IMG/VR virus record: IMGVR_UViG_3300023175_001596 | Coordinates: 1-35,661 of that record | Origin: a virus | Direction: 5' to 3' (one strand) | DNA length: 35,661 nucleotides | Part shown: positions 820 through 11,781 of the stretch, in pieces | Layout of the letters: every line of letters begins with the position of its first letter | Position numbering within the stretch: position 1 is the stretch's first letter | Made by a program: the position numbers and the translations under genes | The notes under the pieces: model-generated | Seen by the model: the letters and a program-made list of their open reading frames with translations, nothing else | What the model was told of the DNA's origin: nothing | Databases searched by the model: none

Positions 820-1320
820 ATGATACAAATTTATCGAGTATTTAAAGACAAAAATAAAACTTGGTTACGCAAACATAATTACCCAAATGATGTCCTTACC
901 CCTTGTATATGGATGTCAGGGTGTAATTGGTTTGACGAAGGCTATCTAGTAACTCAATCATGTCTCAATACACAATCTCTTCTAAATTATTATAACTGGG
1001 GGTTGTTTAGAAAGCCAACATCATATCCTAAAAAAGTAGTAGAATGGACAACCCCTATTAGGCAACTTTTATATTATAAAAATACTGGAACAAATTTTCA
1101 TAATCATAAAATCCATGTAGATCGACAAAGTAAAGTTCAATATAATATATGGGTGTCAATATCTGCTACTACTGTATTTGAAATAAAAGATTTAATGTCA
1201 GTTAGATTAAAGCTAGGTTATGCTATTGCTATTCCACCGGAAACAATATATAGAATAGTATCTACTAATAGAGATCGTAGATTACTATCCTATAGTGCTA
1301 TGGCTAAGGTCCGCCCATAG
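820..1320 (+). CDS. Unknown 166-residue phage protein, possibly cupin-like at the C-terminus
   Basis: One of only four plus-strand genes in the window. The protein has a cluster of Trp, Tyr and Cys in the first 65 residues, then FHNHKIHVD near residue 93, and ends with a strand-rich section that includes GYAIAIPPETIYRI. An H-x-H followed by beta-strands and a late IPP turn is reminiscent of cupin or 2-oxoglutarate-oxygenase folds. That is only a shape resemblance, and no full motif is present. The ATG lacks an obvious ribosome site; TATAAT occurs about 20 nt upstream. The 3' end overlaps the convergent membrane-protein gene by 17 nt, so no terminator separates them. Confidence 0.6.
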   Translation: MIQIYRVFKDKNKTWLRKHNYPNDVLTPCIWMSGCNWFDEGYLVTQSCLNTQSLLNYYNWGLFRKPTSYPKKVVEWTTPIRQLLYYKNTGTNFHNHKIHVDRQSKVQYNIWVSISATTVFEIKDLMSVRLKLGYAIAIPPETIYRIVSTNRDRRLLSYSAMAKVRP

Positions 1321-1864
1321 ATGTTGTAGTTGGTGTAACACCTTGTCTCATAGCTTCCATAACTACTGCTGGAGGATTATTTGCTTGTGGATTTTTTTGC
1401 GGCAAATACTTAGCAGGATCTAAATCATATAGTTCCAATGCTCCGCCAGCAGACTTAGAAGAACCTAAAACAAATGATCCATCGTTCTCCTCAAGAGCCT
1501 CTTCTTCCATAAACTCACCTCTAACAGTTTTTCCTTGCTCTCTAGAAGCGTCTCCTGCTTCAAGTTCAGCTTGAGTTTGCTCTGTATAGGGTTTAGCATA
1601 TGAGCGTGGTTCATCCTCGTCATCGTGCTTTACCCAAATCCAAATAGTTTCACCATCAGTATGATATGAGAGATATTCAAACTCTTTACTATTCAGTGCA
1701 GTAGTTGGATATCCTAATACAGTATTATAAAAGAATACAATACCAATTACTGTAGCTAGTGCTGTAGGAATAATATAATATTGATGTAGTGTTGCTCTAC
1801 TTTGGATAATAGCATATACAAACAAAGCTGCGGCTAAGAAGCCAAATATCATTAAAAGTGTCAT
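1304..1864 (-). CDS. Two-span membrane protein, third gene of the ExbB/ExbD-like module
   Basis: A 186-residue protein with two N-terminal membrane segments (about residues 2-20, LLMIFGFLAAALFVYA, and 28-46, YYIIPTALATVIGIVFF). A soluble part follows, containing TDGETIWIWVKHDDEDEP and then an acidic, Glu-rich low-complexity tail ending in PTTTSMGGP. The ATG is preceded by GGAGAGATAC, a good ribosome site. It starts 12 nt after the stop of the ExbD-like gene and is the last gene of the three-gene module. That position suggests it is an accessory membrane subunit of the same complex (inference). I know no named family for it. Confidence 0.7.
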   Translation of the reverse strand: MTLLMIFGFLAAALFVYAIIQSRATLHQYYIIPTALATVIGIVFFYNTVLGYPTTALNSKEFEYLSYHTDGETIWIWVKHDDEDEPRSYAKPYTEQTQAELEAGDASREQGKTVRGEFMEEEALEENDGSFVLGSSKSAGGALELYDLDPAKYLPQKNPQANNPPAVVMEAMRQGVTPTTTSMGGP

Positions 1865-1876
1865 GTATCTCTCCGG

Positions 1877-2653
1877 TCAGTTTGATGATGGTGGTGATGG
1901 ACTTGGTGTTGTTGGGCTTGGGCCCGGTGCTGTCTGTTGCCTCAATGCTCGTTGTAATCCTTCATCAACTTCATCAGGTACATCTGATAGATGATATTCT
2001 TGTCCAGGTACTTTACCCCGAATCAAATTCTTTGGTAGATAGTTAATGTTTCTAACTACTCCTAGATCATCAAGTTCAAAATTGATAAAAGTTTTTTGGG
2101 CTCCTTTTTCTTCTAAAATATGCGAGCTTGTATGCACAATATAGAAAGGATTCAACCTTATAACCTCAACAGTAACATTGGCAGGACCTCGCATAGATGG
2201 ATTCTCTTTGAGCCAACCTTCTTCTACTAACTGCTTTGGAAATACTGCTGGAGCTGAAGAATAATAATGAGCATTGATTGTGTAGTCTCCTACTTCTAAT
2301 GCTCTAAAGGTAACAACTTCTCGGTTGATACGAACAACTTCCAATTCACCGTTTGGTTTCCAATACCAATCATTTCGTGTTCCTAAATCATCTTTGTCTA
2401 AGAACACATTGCCTCTAGTTGGTTGAACAAAGTTCACCGTTCCATGAGGCGTTTGTACCCAGAGATCAATGTCAGCTTCATGCATGTCTTCCCAATGCAT
2501 TATGACTATCATCTCTGCTTTCTTTTCTACGTCAGCAGTCTTCTCTGGTTTGTTAATCAATAAAAAGCTAATAAGGAAAAGGAATACAAATCCTAAAATT
2601 AGATTGAATAATAAATCCGTAAGGGCGAGAGTGCTTATATACTTATTTTTCAT
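1877..2653 (-). CDS. ExbD/TolR/MotB-like stator subunit with a DUF2135-like domain
   Basis: A 258-residue protein. A short cytoplasmic N-terminus leads into one membrane helix at about residues 12-33 (TDLLFNLILGFVFLFLISFL). Asp13 sits at the start of that helix, where ExbD, TolR and MotB carry their proton-binding Asp. The periplasmic part then shows DIDLWVQTPHG (residues 61-71) and GDYTINAHYY (122-131). These match the pattern of DUF2135/YfaP-like beta-sandwich domains (D-x-DLWV...G-x-Y-x-V). The C-terminus is a Pro/Ser tail. It overlaps the ExbB-like gene by 11 nt, indicating coupled synthesis. Assignment rests on the helix, the Asp and the neighbour. The usual TolR/ExbD or OmpA-type periplasmic domain is absent, so the energised target is unknown. 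Confidence 0.7.
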   Translation of the reverse strand: MKNKYISTLALTDLLFNLILGFVFLFLISFLLINKPEKTADVEKKAEMIVIMHWEDMHEADIDLWVQTPHGTVNFVQPTRGNVFLDKDDLGTRNDWYWKPNGELEVVRINREVVTFRALEVGDYTINAHYYSSAPAVFPKQLVEEGWLKENPSMRGPANVTVEVIRLNPFYIVHTSSHILEEKGAQKTFINFELDDLGVVRNINYLPKNLIRGKVPGQEYHLSDVPDEVDEGLQRALRQQTAPGPSPTTPSPSPPSSN

Positions 2654-3107
2654 ATTTCACAAACTCGTCCATATACACTAATTGCAACTTTAGCAAGATG
2701 CTACAGATAAGGCCCGTTAGTGTTGTCCATAATGCCGTCCCCATACCAGTTGCCATTTGTCCCAATGCATATTGAACGCTATTAATGTCTTGAACATTAA
2801 TGTCTGTGAACATTGTGCTGAGCATATAGATAAAGCCTATAACAGTTCCTACCATTCCTAGGCTTAGCAGCATTTCACTCATATACCATTCTGGGCGTGA
2901 GCTAGATTGCTTATCGTTTGTAATGTCGAACATATGGATCTTCCAACCAGCTCTCAAACTCAATACGATGTATAGTCCAATAATCAACCAACTAATATAT
3001 GTTACATCTGTATTATAAAGTGTTGTAAGAAATCCAAACTGCCAACATAAAAATAACATTACTATCGACGAGCAAAACATTGCCCACCATTTCAATCTTG
3101 TTTCCAT
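2643..3107 (-). CDS. MotA/TolQ/ExbB-family proton-channel-like protein
   Basis: From the preferred ATG at 3107 (AGGA 6 nt upstream; a TTG start at 3122 is also open) the protein has 154 residues. Two hydrophobic segments near the N-terminus (about 12-30 and 36-53) are followed by a cytoplasmic loop. Then comes MLLSLGMVGTVIGFIYML, the classic LG-x-x-GTV-x-G signature of TolQ/ExbB/MotA, and ATGMGTALWTTLTGLICS in the last helix. Thr88 and the Thr cluster at 124-131 lie where TolQ and ExbB carry channel-lining Thr. ExbB/TolQ usually exceed 200 residues, so this is a short form. With the ExbD-like gene downstream it probably forms a proton-driven stator in the inner membrane (inference). Confidence 0.8.
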   Translation of the reverse strand: METRLKWWAMFCSSIVMLFLCWQFGFLTTLYNTDVTYISWLIIGLYIVLSLRAGWKIHMFDITNDKQSSSRPEWYMSEMLLSLGMVGTVIGFIYMLSTMFTDINVQDINSVQYALGQMATGMGTALWTTLTGLICSILLKLQLVYMDEFVKYEK

Positions 3108-3123
3108 AAAAAATCCTATCAAT

Positions 3124-3131
3124 TATTTATC
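3124..3131 (-). promoter_or_regulatory. Candidate T4-type late promoter (GATAAATA)
   Basis: Minus-strand GATAAATA, one base from the T4 late consensus TATAAATA. It lies 16 nt before the ATG of the ExbB-like gene and overlaps the stop of the reductase gene. It would let the membrane module be transcribed late and separately from the replication genes upstream. Confidence 0.4.
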
Positions 3132-3990
3132 CTACGAATGCTTTCTCTAGAACGTAGGTTCCTTGTTGTTGATTACTTCCTTCTACAAACCCACGCTCTT
3201 CTAGTATCTCACGCAAGTCTTCGTTGAACTCCATAGAGCCGCATAACATAACTCTGTCCTTTATAGGATCTAGTTCTGGAATCATAGTCAGTCCGTGTGT
3301 AGCAGGATCTAACAAATATTCTTGAATGCGCTTAGTCCAGCCAAAGTGTTCAGCATCTTGTGTAACGATTGGCATATAATGAATAAACGAATTTCTAGTT
3401 AGCTCCTCGTCATATGCTAGTAAGTCTTCTTTTTTACGAACACTCCACATTACATATGTTTTTCTTTCAAACATAGTTTTAAGTTGCCTACTTCTAAGTA
3501 TAGACATAAATGGAGCAATACCTGTTCCTGTAGCTAGTAGCCATACTCGTTCAGATTCTTTAGGTGTAAAGTTTTCTGCAAGCAAAGTGCCTTTGGCTTT
3601 TTTACCAACATGCATTGTGTCGCCAGGTAAAACATACTTCAATAATGATGTAAGTTCTCCGTTAGGTGCTTTGATAGAATAAAACTCTAGGTAGTCATCA
3701 CTAGGTGCTGATGTAAAAGAATAAGCTCGCTTTATACTGTCAGGTAGCCCAATCATTGTAAACTCACCTGGCTTGAATGCGTAACCTTCTGGCTTTGTTG
3801 TTCTAATCTTAAATAGTGATGGTGTTGTATGATGTACTTCTAGTACAGTGACTTCGTGATACTTTGTGTTTGATTTTGCTTCCTGTTGTTCCTCAATACG
3901 AAACTTAGCAAGTTCTTCTTGCCATTCTTCTTCTGTAAGAGCGTGCCATCCTCTACAAAAGTCTGGCGAGCGCCCGCATCCACATGACAT
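3127..3990 (-). CDS. Ferredoxin-NADP reductase-like flavoprotein with a Cys-rich N-terminal extension
   Basis: A 287-residue protein. Residues about 45-287 are a complete bacterial-type FNR: RAYSFTSAP (88-96, FAD binding, R-x-Y-S), ATGTGIAPF (153-161, NADP-binding G-T-G-x-x-P), LCGS near 250, and an aromatic-poor end GTYVLEKAFVG. The enzyme would pass electrons between NADPH and ferredoxin or flavodoxin. The first 44 residues are extra: C3-G-C5...C12-x3-H16 (CGCGRSPDFCRGWH) followed by an acidic helix. This resembles a shortened CDGSH iron-sulfur motif. The start has a strong AAAGGAGA ribosome site. It lies between the helicase and the membrane module on the same strand. Confidence 0.85.
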   Translation of the reverse strand: MSCGCGRSPDFCRGWHALTEEEWQEELAKFRIEEQQEAKSNTKYHEVTVLEVHHTTPSLFKIRTTKPEGYAFKPGEFTMIGLPDSIKRAYSFTSAPSDDYLEFYSIKAPNGELTSLLKYVLPGDTMHVGKKAKGTLLAENFTPKESERVWLLATGTGIAPFMSILRSRQLKTMFERKTYVMWSVRKKEDLLAYDEELTRNSFIHYMPIVTQDAEHFGWTKRIQEYLLDPATHGLTMIPELDPIKDRVMLCGSMEFNEDLREILEERGFVEGSNQQQGTYVLEKAFVG

Positions 3991-4019
3991 AGTTCTCCTT
4001 TTATTTTACTTATTAGTTG

Positions 4020-5444
4020 CTAGTCTTCCTCAGACGTTTTAAGGTTGTTTAGAAAATCTCGAAGTTTAGTGCTATCTGTTTTAGCTGTGATTTTCATTTT
4101 AGGTTCGTCGGGTACTTCATCTGGACTTGTAGGTGCTGATCCGTTTCTCTTTACCTTGCTCAATATAGACTGAGCACTTGTGTTAGATGTAACAGTTACA
4201 CCTTCCTCATCCTCTGAGTCTGTTATGCGTAGTGTATCAATATTAAAATCTAAATCTATTTTAGCATTTACTCCTGAGGAGTTTCTAGTTTTCATTAGCT
4301 GGATTTGATATCGTCCTCGTTCCCGCATAGCTCTAGAAGTAAAGATACCTATTACATTATCTGCTGTTTGTATTTTAGATAATCCTCCTGAGATATGACT
4401 ATGATCGAATTCTATCTCTTCTACAGAGGCTCTATTCAACTGAGATGCTGTTACAAATAGTGTGTTTGTTTCCATAGCTAAATTACGCAACTCTTCAGAT
4501 ACATATTTGTCTTTTACAAATAAGTTCTCAGCCGAGATGCGTTTGCCAATAGGCATCATCAAATCTAAATAATCTACAAGCAATACATCTATTTTTCTAT
4601 CTGTTTTGATTTCTAATTCTTTTATGTATGCTCTAATATCGTTTGCTGTTTTACCTGATGGCATATACTTTACTTGGAATGCGCCAGACTTTTTTCCTAT
4701 AATCTTTACCTTCATCTCTACATCATCTATACTCTTAAATATTTCTCGAGAAGGTATCTCTGTAACCATAGAGTCAAGTCTCATACTAACAATCTGTTCT
4801 GAAAGCTCAAATGTTAGATAAACTACATTCAATCCTTCCTTTGCCCAATTGACTCCTAAGTTAGCCAGGAATAAACTTTTACCTGCGCCAGAGCCTCCAG
4901 CAAATATATTCAGTTCTCCTCTGTTGAATCCACCAAATAGTTTCTGATCCAGTGTTGTCCAGCCTGTGCTTACTTGTCCGTTCCTACTTTTGATCCACTC
5001 TAGTCTGCCTCTAGGATCTGCCCAGTAGTTAGTTCCTAAATCTTTTTGTAATCCTATCTGCACTGCGTTCTTTACTAGATCCTCTACTGGGCCATACTCG
5101 CCTTTCTCTAGTAAGTCTGCTGACTTGAGAATAGCTTCCTCAAGTGCTTTGTGTCTGCTGAAAGTTTCAAACTCTGCTAGTAGCCAATCATAATGCTCTG
5201 TCTTCATTGGGCCAGGATCTCGTAGCTCTGTACCACACGCACCATTCACCATATCCCGTGTAGGTATTGCGTTATGCTCTGCTACATAGTCTGCTAGAAA
5301 CTTTGCTGCTGATTGTAATCTCTTATCAAATGTCTTTGGCTCAAATACACCTTGACACCTAATAAACGATTCAGCATCTGTTAGAAACATCTCAAGATAT
5401 ACACGTTGTATATCATATCCATAGTCTGTGTTCTGTCTGCTCAT
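4020..5444 (-). CDS. gp41: Replicative DNA helicase, T4 gp41 (DnaB-like)
   Basis: A 474-residue RecA-fold helicase that unwinds the fork 5' to 3' and loads gp61 primase. Visible motifs are Walker A GGSGAGKS (183-190), the Glu-bearing strand VVYLTFELS (about 208-216), Walker B LLVDYLDLM (about 285-293), VTASQLNR (H3/arginine-finger region) and HISGGLSKIQTADNVIGI, all in gp41/DnaB order. The N-terminal about 130 residues are the helical dimerisation domain. The C-terminal tail is acidic and low-complexity. The ATG overlaps the stop of the upstream carbamoyltransferase gene (TAATG). Length matches T4 gp41 (475 residues). Confidence 0.95.
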   Translation of the reverse strand: MSRQNTDYGYDIQRVYLEMFLTDAESFIRCQGVFEPKTFDKRLQSAAKFLADYVAEHNAIPTRDMVNGACGTELRDPGPMKTEHYDWLLAEFETFSRHKALEEAILKSADLLEKGEYGPVEDLVKNAVQIGLQKDLGTNYWADPRGRLEWIKSRNGQVSTGWTTLDQKLFGGFNRGELNIFAGGSGAGKSLFLANLGVNWAKEGLNVVYLTFELSEQIVSMRLDSMVTEIPSREIFKSIDDVEMKVKIIGKKSGAFQVKYMPSGKTANDIRAYIKELEIKTDRKIDVLLVDYLDLMMPIGKRISAENLFVKDKYVSEELRNLAMETNTLFVTASQLNRASVEEIEFDHSHISGGLSKIQTADNVIGIFTSRAMRERGRYQIQLMKTRNSSGVNAKIDLDFNIDTLRITDSEDEEGVTVTSNTSAQSILSKVKRNGSAPTSPDEVPDEPKMKITAKTDSTKLRDFLNNLKTSEED

Positions 5445-6946
5445 TAGAATACTTTTGCTCCGTATTTCTTTTCAAAGTCACGTGCGTCTCCTAAGTCATT
5501 TACCATAGGCTGTCCTTTTATATTTAGGCTAGTGTTTAGCAACATAGGACAGCCTGTCTTGTCATACCATAGTTCTAACAATTCTCTAAAGCTAGGGTTA
5601 TCCTCTCTTGTAACTGTTTGGACTCTTGAGGTTCCATCAGTGTGTACAATGCCTGGGAAACGTTCTGGCTCTCGACACTTCGGAGTGTATTGCATATATG
5701 GTCCTGTTGGGCCGTCGAAATATTCATCGGCATATTCAGCGAGGATTGCGGGGGCGAAGGGTCTGAACTCTTGCCGCTGTTTAATATGGTTAACCCTACG
5801 CTTGCAATTTGGATCCCGAGGATCAGCAATAAGAGAGCGATTGCCGAGGGCACGAGGACCAATCTCTGCATGTCCTCTTGCAATTCCGCAGAGTCCGATG
5901 GATTCAAGTTCTGAGATGATTCTGTCATAATTTAGTGTTCCTTCTATTTCATATCCTAAGTATGGACCGGGCCAGTCTATATGTCTGCCCCTATATGCTA
6001 ATACAGATCCAATTGATGAACCGGAGTCACCTGGATCAGGCATAATCCATACATTATCCCACATACTGTATATATTAGTATTAGCACTACAATTCAAAGC
6101 ACACCCGCCCATAAGGACTAGGTTATTGCTAGTAGTTCGACTCTTTACTTCTCTAGAGATTGTCTCAAGTAACATCTCATAGACTCGTTGTGTTGCTGCT
6201 GCCACATCATATGCCCAAAAAGTTGGACCACCAAATTCGTGTGCTATCATATCTGGCTTCCACCATAAGCATCCTCGATGTAGATTATGCTTTAGCTTTA
6301 TAGTTGGTATCTTGCCAAATATATTATCTATAGCAGATGGCGTCAAGTCAAAAAATGTATCTAGTATCTCGTCAAAATATTTATTGCTATCACCAAATGC
6401 TGCCATTCCCATCAGTATATATTCTTCCTCATTTGGCTTTAGTCCTAGTCGTTGCGTCATAGCACTATACCATAAACCAATTGAGTGTGGATATCCTTGT
6501 GAGAATATTTGATGTAGGTTCTGTCCAGTGCCTTCCCATACAGTTAGAGTCTCAAATTCTCCAATAGAATCTATTACTATAACTGTAGCATTTGAAAATC
6601 CTGAGGTGTAGTATCCTGCAGCGGCATGTGACTGATGATGGCTCATTGTATTCACGGGAGAGTGTATGCCATACTTTGCCATATACTTTTCAACATTGTT
6701 CTCGCCAAACTTCCAACCTTGACCCGCTTTTAGCTGCCTGACACTTTTTAGAATTGGATCTTCATACCATATTACTTCAGAAGGGTAGCCCCATTGTAGA
6801 GCATAGTTTATAATTTTACTGTTTAGATGTGGATCGTTTTTTATTCTACTAAATCGTTCTGAGTGACTAGAGAATACAATTTTATCTCCATCGAATGCTG
6901 TTAGCGATGCGTTATGACTGTTTGCGCTGACGCCCCAAGTAATCAT
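5444..6946 (-). CDS. Carbamoyltransferase, NodU/CmcH family
   Basis: A 500-residue protein. The N-terminal Kae1-like domain shows MITWGVSANSHNAS, the metal-binding HHQSHAAAGYYTS (about 103-115), VIVIDSIGE, and LMGGCALNCSANT. The C-terminal YrdC-like domain shows EIGPRALGNRSLIADPR, FRPFAPAIL and LNTSLNIKGQPM. These are the family's diagnostic strings. The enzymes use carbamoyl phosphate and ATP to carbamoylate a hydroxyl on a sugar or other small molecule. It is slightly shorter than TobZ or NodU. It sits between gp61/44-aa and gp41, so a role on phage nucleotide or glycan chemistry is possible, but the substrate cannot be read. The segment around 5700-5900 is visibly richer in G and C than its flanks. 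Confidence 0.92.
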   Translation of the reverse strand: MITWGVSANSHNASLTAFDGDKIVFSSHSERFSRIKNDPHLNSKIINYALQWGYPSEVIWYEDPILKSVRQLKAGQGWKFGENNVEKYMAKYGIHSPVNTMSHHQSHAAAGYYTSGFSNATVIVIDSIGEFETLTVWEGTGQNLHQIFSQGYPHSIGLWYSAMTQRLGLKPNEEEYILMGMAAFGDSNKYFDEILDTFFDLTPSAIDNIFGKIPTIKLKHNLHRGCLWWKPDMIAHEFGGPTFWAYDVAAATQRVYEMLLETISREVKSRTTSNNLVLMGGCALNCSANTNIYSMWDNVWIMPDPGDSGSSIGSVLAYRGRHIDWPGPYLGYEIEGTLNYDRIISELESIGLCGIARGHAEIGPRALGNRSLIADPRDPNCKRRVNHIKQRQEFRPFAPAILAEYADEYFDGPTGPYMQYTPKCREPERFPGIVHTDGTSRVQTVTREDNPSFRELLELWYDKTGCPMLLNTSLNIKGQPMVNDLGDARDFEKKYGAKVF

Positions 6947-6948
6947 AC

Positions 6949-7083
6949 TTACTCATAAATAAAAGGGTCTTGTTCTCTCAATTTCTTTAATCGTTTTCTA
7001 AATTCAATTTCTTCTTTTACCCATACAAATGGAAAAGAAATAATTTCCCAGAGCTTACGGAAAGCATCTTTTATTTTATCCAT
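6949..7083 (-). CDS. Small conserved-looking basic protein (44 aa)
   Basis: A minus-strand frame from ATG at 7083 to TAA at 6949. It starts MDKIKDAFRKLWEIISF, continues with FVWVKEEIEFRKRLKKL and ends DPFIYE. An amphipathic helix with Trp and Phe and then a highly charged helix suggest a membrane-surface or nucleic-acid-associated peptide. It overlaps the end of the primase gene by 13 nt and ends 2 nt before the carbamoyltransferase ATG, exactly as a real gene in this operon would. I recall similar short charged proteins ending DPFIY in marine T4-like phages but cannot verify it. Function unknown. Confidence 0.6.
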   Translation of the reverse strand: MDKIKDAFRKLWEIISFPFVWVKEEIEFRKRLKKLREQDPFIYE

Positions 7084-8048
7084 CTTTTCATTCTCAATTT
7101 TATTTTTAGACTGGTCCTCTCTTTGTATTTCATTATACTGTAAAGAGTTAGTGTTCTACCGTATTTAGCTACTGCATCGCTTATGTCATTTATTTCATTA
7201 CGCCAAGGAGGCATACTTACCATCCATTCATTCTCCAATGCTGCCTCAATCATCTTTGCTCCTGCTTTATCTCTGTCAGGTACTACGATGATATTCTTAT
7301 TCAGAGAGTTTATAAGAAGCGCCTGCTGCGGGTTTATGTCACTACCTAATACTGCTAACCCATTGATGAGAAGAGCGTCTAGCGGGCCCTCACACACGAT
7401 AGCGTAAGGCCTATCATATGGTTGAGCATCCATACCATATACGAATCCTGGCTGCGAGTATGTTAGATACTTTGCTATGCTCCCTTCAGTCTTGTAGGTA
7501 CGAGCTGTATAGCCAACACATTCTCCGCCATAGTAGAAGGGAATAATAAATCTATTCTTCATACCTAGCTCAGGACTCCAGTAGAAGTTTGTATCAGACA
7601 TAAGCAAGTTTCTACTAGCCATATATTCTAATACAGGAACAACTGCTTCGTTTTGTGTCTCAGTCATTAGTTGAGAACCAACAGGAAGTCTAACAGGATC
7701 AAACTGAGGACGATGTGAGACATATTGTATGTGCTCTATGTCTTGATTGACACGCATTATGTCAAATGAGATCCGTGTAATCAAATCAGAAGGAACTGAT
7801 AACCACTCTAGTAACTGCTTCATTTTAGCCGTGAGGTTGCGTCCAGGCTGCCAAGATGCCTTGTAGCCACAGTTAAAGCAAGAGTAGCTGATTACTTCGT
7901 TGGATATAATGATGCCAGAGCGCCCTCTGTTATCTGCTTTGTGTCCTCGATGATGACAACATACAGAGTTGAATGCGGTCCAGCCACTAGGCGTTTGTTT
8001 TCTCTTGTATGGAAGGTGTGCCCATACAGTATCAGATAATAGGCTCAT
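7071..8048 (-). CDS. gp61: DNA primase, T4 gp61
   Basis: A 325-residue primase that makes RNA primers for lagging-strand synthesis with gp41. The N-terminal zinc-binding module has C30/C31-H-H and C57-x2-C60 (SCFNCGYKASW). The TOPRIM domain shows YAIVCEGPLDALLING (about 213-228, catalytic Glu) and IIVVPDRDKAGA (about 252-263, D-x-D). The length is close to T4 gp61 (342). The ATG is only 6 nt after a consensus -10 box, so an mRNA from that promoter would be leaderless. There is no Shine-Dalgarno, and the N-terminus is needed to complete the zinc module, which supports this start. Confidence 0.92.
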   Translation of the reverse strand: MSLLSDTVWAHLPYKRKQTPSGWTAFNSVCCHHRGHKADNRGRSGIIISNEVISYSCFNCGYKASWQPGRNLTAKMKQLLEWLSVPSDLITRISFDIMRVNQDIEHIQYVSHRPQFDPVRLPVGSQLMTETQNEAVVPVLEYMASRNLLMSDTNFYWSPELGMKNRFIIPFYYGGECVGYTARTYKTEGSIAKYLTYSQPGFVYGMDAQPYDRPYAIVCEGPLDALLINGLAVLGSDINPQQALLINSLNKNIIVVPDRDKAGAKMIEAALENEWMVSMPPWRNEINDISDAVAKYGRTLTLYSIMKYKERTSLKIKLRMKRWIK

Positions 8049-8054
8049 ACTTTC

Positions 8055-8083
8055 ATTATAGCATGATTATTTACAAAAGTCAA
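8055..8083 (-). promoter_or_regulatory. Sigma-70-type promoter before primase
   Basis: Minus strand TTGACT (8078-8083), 17-nt spacer, TATAAT (8055-8060), then GAAAGT and the primase ATG. It matches the consensus closely. The following GAAAGTAT also occurs after the promoter at 17206-17234. The expected start site falls on or next to the A of the start codon. Confidence 0.8.
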
Positions 8084-8856
8084 TCTCGGATGAGAATCTT
8101 TTTTATCTTATCTACTGGGTCATTATCAAACTTCACACGCAAGAATGAAAATACTCCGTTGAAGTTCTTTGCTACTGGTTCTGTTTCTGTTCCGTCCAGT
8201 GTTATGTCAAACAAGTCTCCCCATGTTGGTGAGGACAGTGTGTTCTCAAGTGTAGCCTGCACAGTTACAGTGCCTGCGTATCCTGTGGTATATACTGCCA
8301 CAGTGTGTAACGCCTCAGATCCATTTAGGGCTGGTTGAGCAGATAGATATTCACTGTACCAGAAATTATTATCTGGAGTAAATACCGTCGCCACTCCGGC
8401 AGGCTTGGCTGGAGGAAAGGCATAGTCATCAACAACTATTGTAGCATTATTGTCAAAGTGACTATCTACATAAGTTATGTGACGACGGTTCTCCTCATCT
8501 ATTAGATAAATGTTATATCTCATCATTTGCTTTGGCAAGTTGTATAAATCATTTTCTGTAATTGTTGTTTGAAACTTGCCTCGATGAACTGTACTATCTG
8601 TTGGTGCGTATGGATGGCACTCTCTTTCAATTACTTTTCTACCATTGTCATCAAATGCTACAAACATTATTTTATATAAATCAATGTTTATGGGTTTGTG
8701 ATCGGCGTTCAATAATCTAAATTGTATTGTATTGTCTATTCCTTTATAGACTTTGATCTGTCGTGTATACACTGGCATCATCTCCGTAGAAAGGCCTTGC
8801 TCACTACCTACTATCGTAATAATATTATCTACTAAATAACGTGGTATTAACTGCAT
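8080..8856 (-). CDS. Probable virion protein with beta-sandwich domains
   Basis: A 258-residue protein rich in beta-strand patterns and lacking membrane segments. The N-terminal half (about 30-140) has an alternating pattern with VYKGIDNTIQFRLLNADHKP, AFDDNGRKVIER and MRYNIYLIDEENR. These recall the N-terminal domain of baseplate or fibre-associated proteins such as BppU. The C-terminal half (about 185-255) has a discoidin- or Ig-like repeat (AGTVTVQATLENT, FSFLRVKFDN). I infer a structural or receptor-binding part, not proven. A TATAAATA box lies 5 nt before the ATG, fitting late expression. Another possible start is Met25/26, preceded by ACGGAG. Confidence 0.6.
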   Translation of the reverse strand: MQLIPRYLVDNIITIVGSEQGLSTEMMPVYTRQIKVYKGIDNTIQFRLLNADHKPINIDLYKIMFVAFDDNGRKVIERECHPYAPTDSTVHRGKFQTTITENDLYNLPKQMMRYNIYLIDEENRRHITYVDSHFDNNATIVVDDYAFPPAKPAGVATVFTPDNNFWYSEYLSAQPALNGSEALHTVAVYTTGYAGTVTVQATLENTLSSPTWGDLFDITLDGTETEPVAKNFNGVFSFLRVKFDNDPVDKIKKILIRD

Positions 8857-8861
8857 AATAT

Positions 8862-8869
8862 TATTTATA
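8862..8869 (-). promoter_or_regulatory. T4 late promoter (exact TATAAATA)
   Basis: An exact minus-strand TATAAATA lies 5 nt before the ATG of the probable virion gene. T4 late transcripts start about 5-7 nt downstream of this box, so the mRNA would begin at or within the start codon. That implies a leaderless message or a downstream start. Confidence 0.6.
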
Positions 8870-8887
8870 TGGAATAAAAATAGATTA

Positions 8888-9256
8888 ATGTTACGAAACC
8901 AAATAGAAGAAAACTACCCATTTATCAGTGTAATCACATACGGCGGAAAAGAATACGTTGGTATTGTTGTAAATCAAGATAATAATATTACAACAATATT
9001 AGATTACTCTATGCTTAAGACTACTGAGGACAAACAATATCTACTAGAGATAGGACAAACATGGTGGATGGAATCAAATAGGTTAATACCTATTACAATA
9101 TTCCTAAGCAAAGATGTTGAGCCTATTAGATACTGTTTGAGAAATATGAACAGCAAAGATGTCAATATAGTGCTAGGCCCAACAGTTAATCTGCACAACC
9201 TAACACTAAAGAGAGTCAAGAGGAAGAATGTGCAGTTAGTTCGTCGTCCGAAATAA
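8888..9256 (+). CDS. Unknown 122-residue phage protein
   Basis: A plus-strand gene divergent from the probable virion gene. The sequence has regular strand alternation (YPFISVITYGGKEYVGIV, NNITTILDYSML, TWWMESNRLIPITIFL) and a basic tail (LKRVKRKNVQLVRRPK). This suggests a small beta-barrel, possibly Sm- or SH3-like, binding nucleic acid (inference). No catalytic motif is visible. No ribosome site is obvious before the ATG; the upstream is AT-rich. The 3' end overlaps the convergent DnaE-like gene by 41 nt. Confidence 0.65.
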   Translation: MLRNQIEENYPFISVITYGGKEYVGIVVNQDNNITTILDYSMLKTTEDKQYLLEIGQTWWMESNRLIPITIFLSKDVEPIRYCLRNMNSKDVNIVLGPTVNLHNLTLKRVKRKNVQLVRRPK

Positions 9257-9803
9257 TTTGCTCACAGAGTAAATTCATATGAACGACTGTAGCAATTGCG
9301 TAAGAAAAGGCATGAGCTTTCTTGAAGTAATAGTCTCCATTGTATGGAGGCTTCCATACTTCTCGGCGTATAGCGTCCCAGCCTTGATCCGCTAGATACC
9401 TTTTGGATGGACGTATGATAGCTAGGACCATTGCGAGTTCTTCGACGCTAGTAGGTTGTAGCTTACGACATAACGGTCCGTGCCCGCTCAAGTGAAATAC
9501 TTGATTTACAAATTCGTCGTGCTGTAGCAACTCCCACTCTGGCTCTGTATTCATCAACTCATCTAGATGTCCTTCATCTCTAACACCTTTGTATATATTG
9601 ACATTCAGAAAGTCTATTTTGAAATAGCCTCTCTCTTCTGCCTGCTTATAGTTTATCGTAGCTTGTCCAGTTAACGGATTCCACGGGATAGCAGTTCCAT
9701 ATATTCCTGTATTGTGTTTAGCTCCGTTCTCTAGTGTTGCTGCACGGTGAGGAATTATATCTAATAATAAATTTCTATCAGCAAAATCTATATCCACATC
9801 CAC
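9216..9803 (-). CDS. Miniature DnaE-like (family C polymerase) palm/fingers protein
   Basis: A 195-residue protein whose motifs line up in order with bacterial DNA polymerase III alpha. MDVDIDFADR (1-10) matches PDFDVDF, holding catalytic Asp401/403 in E. coli. GAKHNTGIYGTAI (27-39) matches GKHAGGVVIA. GYFKIDFLNV (59-68, Asp64) matches the Asp555 strand KFDFLGL. VFHLSGHGPLCRKLQP (102-117) matches VFQLES..MKDLIKRLQP, and YYFKKAHAFSYA (158-169) matches YGFNKSHSAAYA. PHP, OB, tau-binding and most finger sequence are missing. The start is GTG at 9803, 1 nt after the HNH stop. All three catalytic Asp are kept, so it is not simple decay. It could be a small polymerase, a regulator that mimics DnaE, or a remnant under another use. 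Confidence 0.75.
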   Translation of the reverse strand: MDVDIDFADRNLLLDIIPHRAATLENGAKHNTGIYGTAIPWNPLTGQATINYKQAEERGYFKIDFLNVNIYKGVRDEGHLDELMNTEPEWELLQHDEFVNQVFHLSGHGPLCRKLQPTSVEELAMVLAIIRPSKRYLADQGWDAIRREVWKPPYNGDYYFKKAHAFSYAIATVVHMNLLCEQIISDDELTAHSSS

Positions 9804-9804
9804 G

Positions 9805-10302
9805 TTACTTCCCCAATTTTTTAGCCCAACCGGCTCGCATCTTAGCCTTGTCCTCTTCAGTTCGAGGCACTCCTTTATTCCAAGCAGTCCTGCCTTTATT
9901 GGCTTTACTCACAGCATCCTTTACCGCTTGAGATCGAGTCATTCCTCTATTCCAAGCGGGCCTACCTTTTCTCCCGTGCTTTCCAAAATGTTGATGTGCT
10001 TCTTTACGAATAGATTCATATAACTTTGAATTGAAGTTGCCACGCAATCTATTCTTGCTACTTCTAACAAACATCATATTGAATGCGTATAGCAGTTTGT
10101 GCCTTGCTTCTCCTTCATACATTTTAGTTAGCAATAAGTGTGCAATAAAATGTTCTCTAGGTGTTAAAAGAATAAGATTTTCTTCATCATCAGAACCTCC
10201 TACACATTTGGGAATTATATGATGCTTTTCTAAATAAGTATCTTCTCGAACTGGACGTGATGTCATCAACTCAAAATACCATTTAGAATATTTACTTTCC
10301 AT
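9805..10302 (-). CDS. HNH homing endonuclease with NUMOD repeats
   Basis: A 165-residue protein. The nuclease core is LEKHHIIPKCVGGSDDEENL (24-43) followed by LLTPREHFIAHLLL, the H-H...N...H pattern of T4-type HNH enzymes. The C-terminal third carries two copies of KGR-x-AWN-(R/K)-G (about 112-119 and 136-143) and a basic KAKMRAGWAKK, typical of NUMOD3-type DNA-binding modules. Such genes spread by cutting a recipient genome that lacks them. It overlaps the deformylase gene by 11 nt and ends 1 nt before the DnaE-like start, so its insertion may have reshaped that gene's 5' end. Confidence 0.88.
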   Translation of the reverse strand: MESKYSKWYFELMTSRPVREDTYLEKHHIIPKCVGGSDDEENLILLTPREHFIAHLLLTKMYEGEARHKLLYAFNMMFVRSSKNRLRGNFNSKLYESIRKEAHQHFGKHGRKGRPAWNRGMTRSQAVKDAVSKANKGRTAWNKGVPRTEEDKAKMRAGWAKKLGK

Positions 10303-10783
10303 TTCTCTTACTCGCTTTTTTGGAAGCCATTTTCCATTTTAGTGGTGACACACGATCCTTGAAGCATACTCCTTGTAGGTGATCCCACTCGTGTAAGAAT
10401 ACTTTGACAGCATATCCTGTTAGGTGTTGTCGTCGTTGCTCCATATTCTCATCTGTATATTCTACTAGGATTTCTCTAGGGCGTTTGACTTGAACAAATA
10501 TGCCAGGGAAGCTCAAGCATCCTTCGTCTTCTAATACAGTATCCTCAGTGTGTTGTAATACTGTAGGGTTGATACAAAGCTCTGCGTTCTTTGGATCTGC
10601 TCCCATAACAAATAGTTGATGATTCAAATCAACTTGGTTGGCGCTAAGTCCAATCCCGTTGTTACTCAGCATTGTATCAATCATTATAGCTTTGATCTCT
10701 TTAGGATCAAATCCAGGATTAGTGATATCTACCTCAGCAACTTTTGTAGTGAGGATCTCATTTGGGTAATATACTATGTCCAT
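10292..10783 (-). CDS. def: Peptide deformylase
   Basis: A 163-residue metalloenzyme that removes the formyl group from nascent N-termini at the ribosome exit. All three motifs are intact: GIGLSANQ (43-50), EGCLS (87-91, metal Cys89) and HEWDH (131-135, two metal His and the catalytic Glu), followed by LQGV. Length and motif spacing match cellular Def, although the C-terminal helix is replaced by a short Lys/Ser-rich tail. Phage deformylases are known from marine T4-like phages, where they are thought to help process host or phage proteins during infection. It overlaps the sulfotransferase-like gene upstream by 10 nt. Confidence 0.95.
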   Translation of the reverse strand: MDIVYYPNEILTTKVAEVDITNPGFDPKEIKAIMIDTMLSNNGIGLSANQVDLNHQLFVMGADPKNAELCINPTVLQHTEDTVLEDEGCLSFPGIFVQVKRPREILVEYTDENMEQRRQHLTGYAVKVFLHEWDHLQGVCFKDRVSPLKWKMASKKASKRNGK

Positions 10784-11781
10784 TTAAAGTCTCCTGTTTT
10801 CCAGTTTAGTGAAGGAATAAACACACTTGCTAAATCTTCATTATATCTAAGATAAGTTTTATAAAAGTTTATAGATGGGCTTGGCATTGATCTACCATAA
10901 AACTCTTCTAGTTTTTGAATTGTCTCTTCTGGGTTAGTTATTATAGATCGATAGTCTACAAATAATATATTAGTAGTATCAGTAAATAGTTTTCCAGGAT
11001 CATCTTTTGTAGTATAATATTCTATAGAAAAAAGATCTATTCTTTCTTTTAAAAGTTTCAGCAATCCTAACTCAAGAGTTTCTTCTGATAATATCATACG
11101 CCAAGCACGATATGTTGTGTATCGTCTCTTAAATCTATATACATCATTTTTTGGTAAGGTTGAAGAATATTGATCTAAAATATCTTGCCTATCTATATAT
11201 TTTAAAATAGGATATCTTCTTTCAAGGTAGTTACATACTCTTTTACCTATCTTAATAAATGTTTTATACATTTTTTTGATATCATAATATCTCATAATCT
11301 CATTAGGTTTATCGCCTAGTTGAATAATCTCATATGGTATTTTGAGTGACGCCTTAGATCTTTTTCGAACATAATCCATTCCATCACCCAATTCATTTTT
11401 TATAATTCGTAAGAAATTTATTTGAGCAAAATCATCCTCAGTAACGAGCATCTTAATGTAGTTACAGTTTTGAAGATATTTCCCTTCAGTTTGATTTTGG
11501 AAATAAAGTTTGGACTGTTGTCCAATATTATGCCAATAATAAAATTTATAGTCAGGCGATTTATCAATTTGAGATCTCCACTCAACTTGATTTATTGGCT
11601 GGAAAGGATCTTCTGGATCAAAACAATAATGTATATTATAATGATCCATTTGATGAGCATCGCCTAGATAACCAATGGTATATTCTGGACTTTCTTGGTA
11701 CATGCTTGATATTAAAAATAAGAGCATTCTACCACCACCCCCTCCGGGAAAATCTAAATGTGTAGTTTTATACGGCGTCAT
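10774..11781 (-). CDS. Sulfotransferase-like protein, intact copy
   Basis: A 335-residue protein. The N-terminus TTHLDFPGGGGGRMLLFL (6-23) is a glycine-rich loop after a beta-strand, in the place of the PAPS-binding loop of sulfotransferases. Near the C-terminus, ILFVDYRSIITNPEETIQKL and then EEFYGR follow the sulfotransferase pattern (YEDL..dP..tl..l..FLG). It ends PSLNWKTGDFKWT. The next gene cassette (11768-12759) encodes a paralogue with the same beginning and end, so this locus is a tandem duplication. Transfer of sulfate from PAPS to a sugar or lipid is the family reaction; the substrate here is unknown. The standard P-K-(S/T)-G-(S/T) loop is not present, so nucleotide use is uncertain. 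Confidence 0.65.
   Translation of the reverse strand: MTPYKTTHLDFPGGGGGRMLLFLISSMYQESPEYTIGYLGDAHQMDHYNIHYCFDPEDPFQPINQVEWRSQIDKSPDYKFYYWHNIGQQSKLYFQNQTEGKYLQNCNYIKMLVTEDDFAQINFLRIIKNELGDGMDYVRKRSKASLKIPYEIIQLGDKPNEIMRYYDIKKMYKTFIKIGKRVCNYLERRYPILKYIDRQDILDQYSSTLPKNDVYRFKRRYTTYRAWRMILSEETLELGLLKLLKERIDLFSIEYYTTKDDPGKLFTDTTNILFVDYRSIITNPEETIQKLEEFYGRSMPSPSINFYKTYLRYNEDLASVFIPSLNWKTGDFKWT

Follow-up and report, generated by a model that had tools for sequence, protein, structure and literature searches.

In the window, a viral DNA stretch of 35,661 nucleotides (nt; IMG/VR record IMGVR_UViG_3300023175_001596), three adjacent minus-strand genes encode an ExbB/TolQ/MotA-like protein, an ExbD-like protein and a third membrane protein, together called the trio below. 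The original prediction, made from the letters of the window, had taken them for a proton-channel module, and a sequence check found its layout correct in positions, reading frames and spacing. The ExbB-like and ExbD-like genes share 11 nt (2643-2653), a gap of 12 nt separates the ExbD-like gene from the third gene, and the ATG at 3107 is preceded by an AGGA stretch. The trio was characterized by its gene order, protein families, conserved residues, single-chain models and a tree. Its features are as follows (aa, amino acids).

2643..3107, minus strand: ExbB/TolQ/MotA-like subunit, 154 aa; Pfam MotA_ExbB
1877..2653, minus strand: ExbD-like subunit, 258 aa; one membrane helix and a beta-sandwich, predicted to be periplasmic
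2615..2617, minus strand: codon of Asp13, candidate proton-binding residue; Asp in 56 of 58 relatives
2042..2512, minus strand: DUF2135-like/TerD-fold sandwich, residues 48-204 of the ExbD-like protein
1304..1864, minus strand: third subunit, 186 aa; two membrane helices, a small beta domain and a tail

The three encoded proteins

The protein encoded at 2643-3107 is of the MotA/TolQ/ExbB type. Pfam MotA_ExbB (PF01618) matched it at 30.9 bits (expect value, E, 2.5e-7), above the gathering cut-off of 22.9, which the members from phages N34 (23.0 bits), N3_13 and I1_18 pass as well; PHROG gave no match better than E 0.97. A profile of 57 relatives matched PDB chains of MotA (8gqy, 2.3e-9), TolQ (8odt, 2.1e-6), ZorA (8qyy, 5.4e-4) and ExbB (7ajq, 6.7e-4). 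Two threonine stretches line the pore in TolQ and ExbB. In the profile comparison, GLIGTV and ALyTTLvGL were aligned onto GLFGTVWGI and ALIATAIGL of TolQ 8odt, and both the LG..GTV.G signature and the threonine cluster of the original prediction were thereby borne out on solved TolQ chains. Among 57 aligned rows, Gly87 is invariant, Gly84 and Thr129 are each kept in 56, Asp34 in 54 and Thr88 in 51. Four membrane helices may be read from the sequence, helices 2 and 3 being joined by a short loop. This loop has a median of 14 aa (range 10-28) in 24 phage rows, and of 58 aa (range 10-90) in 33 rows from bacterial genomes, one of them a probable prophage.

The AlphaFold model of the ExbD-like protein (predicted local distance difference test score, pLDDT, 84.1; predicted template-modelling score, pTM, 0.68; 53 sequences) contains a single helix at residues 5-33, enclosing Asp13, followed by a sandwich at residues 48-204. 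Comparison with a profile of 12 canonical ExbD/TolR proteins gave one match, 19 columns at the head of the helix, in which the Asp falls on the Asp of TPLIDV (E 0.005). Trp54, Asp61, Asp63, Leu85, Asp88, Asp89 and Glu112 are invariant in 58 of 58 rows. The alignments behind these counts, with loci given by L numbers, hold 58 rows from 61 non-redundant for the ExbD-like protein (A10, omitting L079, L080 and L099 for uncertain or cut ends and substituting L092 for L089), 57 of 62 (A11) and 57 of 63 (A12); the rows omitted from the latter two were cut, over-long or near-duplicate.

The sandwich had been described as DUF2135-like and as a replacement of the usual periplasmic domain. Its motifs (DxDLxV..P.G and PG.Y) and a family-profile link hold up, while its score stays below the Pfam cut-off. 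DUF2135 (PF09906) gave no match to the window protein at E up to 1, and scored 17.4 bits for the Thiodiazotropha member (L087) and 11.8 bits for L064 against a cut-off of 22. The ExbD-like family profile finds a VIT/TPR protein at E 2.0e-4, whose DUF2135 domain (9.4e-20) adjoins the matched stretch; two larger proteins found by this profile (L239 and L237) have no DUF2135 match at 0.001. DUF2135 is thus the nearest named family of the head by sequence, below cut-off. In structure searches with the head model, Foldseek ranked TerD proteins first (best E 1.8e-3, probability 1.00, none at or below 0.001), and VIA-align gave TerD 3ibz at Z 10.6 (131 residues aligned, 3.6 Å), 2qng at 9.9 and 2qz7 at 9.5, then two chains without a TerD label at 9.3 and 9.1, with the first unrelated group at 6.1. 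The head model thus has a TerD-like fold, distinct from the ExbD domain, and unlike DUF2135 (YfaP-type) and TerD domains it is set on a stator-type helix. No sequence relative of the ExbD-like family was found in the PDB below E 0.26, and the best match in a viral structure library (E 3.6e-4) is an unnamed protein. TerD as a sequence relative was rejected: hhalign probability was under 1% against 4 and against 47 TerD sequences, TerD (PF02342) matched none of the window proteins at E up to 1, and the likeness was retained as one of fold only.

The third protein has two helices (residues 2-21 and 28-50) in its AlphaFold model (pLDDT 81), followed by a small beta domain at about 58-118 and a tail; it co-occurs with the ExbB-like and ExbD-like genes, in keeping with the two-span subunit first proposed. 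It has no Pfam match near cut-off, its relatives gave no significant match in family scans, and PHROG matched neither it nor the ExbD-like protein at E up to 1. The top chain in a fold search was eIF5A at Z 6.9, within the tool's stated background, and no fold was assigned. In the tail, LPQK stands 29 residues before the C-terminal end. In 32 of 57 relatives the last 39 residues contain the pattern [LMIVPA]PxK; shuffled tails gave a mean of 4.8 and a maximum of 11, the rows being related and not independent.

Distribution, gene order and descent

In viral contigs of up to 328 kilobases (kb), profile scans found the trio on one strand and in the same order at 32 of 33 loci, marine phages included. 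Initial profiles gave 31 of these loci, L033 was added with a wider profile, and L032 is truncated where its contig stops. The 33 include three contigs of the same virus type as the window, with some near-duplicates among the others. Three IMG/VR contigs encode the window's ExbB-like and ExbD-like proteins at 100% identity. At 52 loci of bacterial genomes, the ExbB-like and ExbD-like genes are present in all 52 and the third gene in 50; L099 is cut, L058 lacks a match, and L077-L080 are probable prophages. The module is therefore carried by phages, as first claimed, but is not peculiar to them, nor a phage oddity. In larger genome regions chosen for an ExbD-like hit, the trio stood in order in 15 of 15, four of them genomes already counted. 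Its members are mostly adjacent, with a small extra gene or gap in, for example, L002, L005, L015, L043, L047, L048, L077 and L078, and 2.3 kb between members in L100. Because the contig scans use short conserved peptides, these counts are lower bounds. The order shared across viral and bacterial loci is beyond chance.

Among 50,697 isolate phage records, 27 match the ExbD-like protein of phage N34 (E up to 1; GenBank and RefSeq copies counted separately), all Rhizobium- or Sinorhizobium-named, and 25 match with the window's protein as query. In the loci read, the trio genes bear the label hypothetical or p-numbers, and in one case the note 'Bll5685 protein'. Carriers of the trio include isolate phages of rhizobia, contigs of marine and of jumbo phages, and genomes of alpha- and gammaproteobacteria. 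A 150-genome sample of the phylum of Thiothrix held a full-length ExbD-like gene in 5 genomes and any match in 8 (Thiothrix included). In the order of Rhizobium esperanzae, 14 genomes out of 150 match at 1e-20, R. esperanzae itself among them.

A FastTree phylogeny of the concatenated trio was computed for 58 loci chosen from 103, with an assumed midpoint root and Shimodaira-Hasegawa-like support. One clade (0.97) unites the trios of lytic phages: the window together with marine T4-like, jumbo, Pootjesviridae and N3_13-like phages. Its sister (0.983) comprises 15 bacterial loci, whose record titles mostly point to gammaproteobacteria and Hyphomicrobiales. The temperate 16-3-like phages and the Rhizobium loci L077-L080 stand on the other side of the tree, with Azospirillum-type bacteria. 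On this tree, and with its assumed root, phages would have gained the trio at least twice, the 16-3-like temperate phages separately.

Genes around the trio

In bacteria, the neighbours shared beyond the trio in the loci compared are clade-specific families only. A DUF3108-like protein (22 bits, below the cut-off of 27) is encoded immediately after the trio at 13 of 67 bacterial loci, from 11 genomes; it presumably has a lipoprotein-type signal, and it is a possible outer-membrane partner. In phages 16-3, NV1.1.1, X2_25 and TM3_3_14B, the ExbB-like gene has a trypsin-like protease as its neighbour, either adjoining or with one small gene between, and in T4-like contigs the trio stands between what we take to be capsid/tail genes and uvsW/gene 55-like genes.

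SbmA/BacA is a proton-driven inner-membrane peptide importer. A gene for it (Pfam 1.5e-135) comes after the trio in several marine phages. On the downstream side it is at most two genes away in L020, L028 and L043 and a few genes away in L029; SbmA matches stand near the trio in L030 and L031 as well. One scan of IMG/VR contigs yielded 276 SbmA/BacA relatives (for example L020:6589-7584, L043:6017-6988, L029:9266-10237 and L103-L182), of which 80 viral loci were retained; in 19 of the 80, several of these being near-duplicates, the trio precedes SbmA by 10-1,743 nt. By contrast, only 4 of the 50,697 isolate phage records have an SbmA match, and two of those 4 are short and unannotated. In L020 (positions 1902-10570 of a 328 kb viral contig), SbmA is among the genes around the trio, the others being, as we take them, DnaK-, small heat-shock-, ClpS-, aldehyde dehydrogenase- and ClpP-like.

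Within the window, a gene for an FAD/NAD oxidoreductase (3127-3990) lies directly upstream of the trio, with no PHROG match at E up to 1. Pfam and PHROG identified a DnaB-type helicase, a primase, a UvsX-like recombinase, a single-strand binding protein and a large terminase, the last closest to PA5oct-type jumbo Pseudomonas phages (54%) and next to Sinorhizobium phage Phosso (48%). A Nol-like carbamoyltransferase (5444-6946; PHROG 4.6e-99) is encoded between the helicase and primase genes, and a weak sulfotransferase match (21.2 bits, cut-off 22) lies at 10774-11781. A GATAAATA box upstream of the trio had been taken as a hint of late expression. The box is present, and this part of the claim failed: there is no evidence of late expression because the window has 11 copies of ATAAATA where 16.7 are expected and the box ends 16 nt before the ATG, so that a late promoter before the trio was rejected.

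Function of the trio

The favoured reading, with moderate confidence, is that the trio is a compact proton-driven motor with an envelope role in the phage. The membrane topology, assembly, proton flow and force of the trio are proposed by analogy with the 5:2 motor family (PMC9389320, PMC12505986 and PMC12204202), and the phage's use of it is likewise proposed. The machine class is well supported: the trio would be a compact relative of MotAB, ExbBD, TolQR and ZorAB, in which an ExbB-like ring encloses two ExbD-like helices. Protons would cross Asp13 between two threonine-lined helices and so move the helix pair and its two periplasmic sandwich heads, while the third protein, beside the channel, may serve as a link or regulator through its small beta domain and flexible tail. 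A cellular system, found near genes for quinoproteins, the enzymes that use pyrroloquinoline quinone (PQQ), in part of one bacterial clade, would have passed to phages, whose form nearly dispenses with the cytoplasmic loop and would have its output on the periplasmic side. Most likely the phage motor would energize an envelope process in infection, such as the upkeep or remodelling of a periplasmic or outer-membrane function, and not mere proton leakage. The conservation of Asp13, Thr129 and Thr88 across phages and bacteria suggests selection for a working channel, and the short cytoplasmic loop with a retained head suggests that phages need the periplasmic output.

Compared with TolQR and ExbBD, the trio has the pore stretches with both threonines and a single-helix partner with a conserved Asp, and its third gene could serve a linking role like that of TolA or TonB. 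It differs in its DUF2135/TerD-like head, which is not of the ExbD/TolR fold, in a two-helix third protein without a TolA/TonB profile match in Pfam scans, and in the very short loop of the phage form. MotAB and PomAB resemble it through MotA 8gqy, the top PDB match of the ExbB-like profile, and the four-helix layout read above, whereas its ExbD-like partner lacks an OmpA-like domain (Pfam) and no flagellar genes were noticed nearby.

Several findings weigh against the motor reading. Pfam ExbD (PF02472) matches neither the window protein (E up to 1) nor seven relatives (E up to 5), and the 19-column match to canonical ExbD/TolR has a probability of only 7%; the kinship to ExbD depends on the Asp-bearing helix, so that of the partner first called ExbD-like the conserved Asp in a single helix stands and a family match does not. 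The ExbB-like member of phage 16-3 falls under the MotA_ExbB cut-off (12.4 bits, E 0.14). Thr88 is replaced in 6 of 57 rows, by Asn in five and Ala in one, and Asp13 by Val in two bacterial rows (L094 and L102), which have an Asp four residues earlier; the channel chemistry is thus not strictly fixed. No trio was found in 61 of the 80 viral SbmA loci, many of them short and cut by contig ends, and no SbmA in the 67 bacterial trio loci. Finally, the neighbours of the phage trio vary by lineage, and the process that is powered cannot be read from context.

Superinfection exclusion or counter-defence, in which the subunits would block phage entry or poison the host's ZorAB, TolQR or ExbBD by mixing, is unlikely. 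It accords with the membrane location and with weak PADLOC matches to ZorA (1.4e-6) and ZorB (0.025). A decoy could lose Asp13 and the pore threonines, yet both are mostly retained, which argues against a dead decoy; the trio is also inherited as a unit, and some bacterial homologues stand near metabolic gene clusters. The likeness to the Zorya system is itself limited: the ExbB-like protein has 154 aa against 420-1063 positions in ZorA models and no long cytoplasmic tail, the best match covers residues 75-145, the best NCBIfam ZorA score is 18.1 bits against a cut-off of 500, and the trio is carried by phages. ZorC, ZorD and ZorE are not among the Pfam and PHROG matches of the window proteins scanned, PADLOC having covered the three trio proteins only.

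In bacteria, PQQ-type neighbours raise another alternative, an auxiliary module that helps to load PQQ or a metal (calcium or lanthanide) into periplasmic dehydrogenases, which is rather improbable. Near 15 of 67 bacterial loci, from 13 genomes (L095/L233 and L087/L234 being duplicates), lies a match to PqqE, a PQQ dehydrogenase, a SoxYZ-like, a CXXCW or a SoxH-like protein; by NCBIfam, examples of these neighbours are PqqE, PqqB, PqqC, a methanol/ethanol-family PQQ dehydrogenase, a SoxYZ-like carrier, a PQQ CXXCW protein and zinc metallohydrolase 1, with PqqB and PqqC both present in L224. Such neighbours occur at six of the 15 bacterial loci that form the sister clade of the lytic phages, and the five invariant acidic residues (61, 63, 88, 89 and 112) stand in a TerD-like head that may bind calcium. 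On the other side, 52 of the 67 loci, the Azospirillum type included, lack the five query families in the flanks covered, the figure of 15 in 67 is a raw count, and no pqq gene was noticed beside the phage trio in the loci read. The bacterial trio adjoins pqq genes and PQQ dehydrogenases at L233:8315-19458 and L224:8844-19035, and it is a possible unrecognized accessory of quinoprotein maturation.

A proton leak, an ungated channel that would drain the host gradient as a takeover or lysis-timing device, is the least probable: the channel class fits by Pfam and PDB profile, two phages (RHph_X2_25 and RHph_TM3_3_14B) have annotated lysozyme genes a few kb upstream, and L033 has near its trio what we take to be an endolysin-like gene, but a conserved folded head and a third subunit would be superfluous, bacterial genomes carry copies, and the annotation of RHph_N34, AF3, I1_18 and N3_13 shows no lysis gene for about 7 kb around the trio, although most neighbours there are 'hypothetical'. 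Accordingly worded suggestions of the original prediction, that the phage short-circuits the gradient or blocks superinfection, found no direct support.

In open-licence literature, the titles and opening lines of abstracts named no phage-encoded ExbB/ExbD pair, and no paper with both DUF2135 and ExbD was found; 'ExbB' occurs six times in a paper on telomere phages (PMC12042878). Some phages exploit host proton-driven machines for entry, as fd does with TolQR (PMC10424213), and a phage that brings its own such machine would be unusual. More tentatively, and somewhat short of probable, the trio may represent a distinct, unnamed class of proton-driven envelope motor in Pseudomonadota, marked by a DUF2135/TerD-fold head and a constant third subunit, which lytic phages reduced to one of the smallest such motors and which very different phages retain to power a process of the periplasm or outer membrane. 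With the trio, the 5:2 class would gain a new periplasmic head as well as a third subunit. Knock-outs are feasible because the trio occurs in cultivable phages (Rhizobium N34, AF3 and N3_13, and the temperate 16-3) and in named bacteria (Thiothrix eikelboomii and Azospirillum). The trio would allow a test of whether lytic phages use the proton gradient for work in the envelope.

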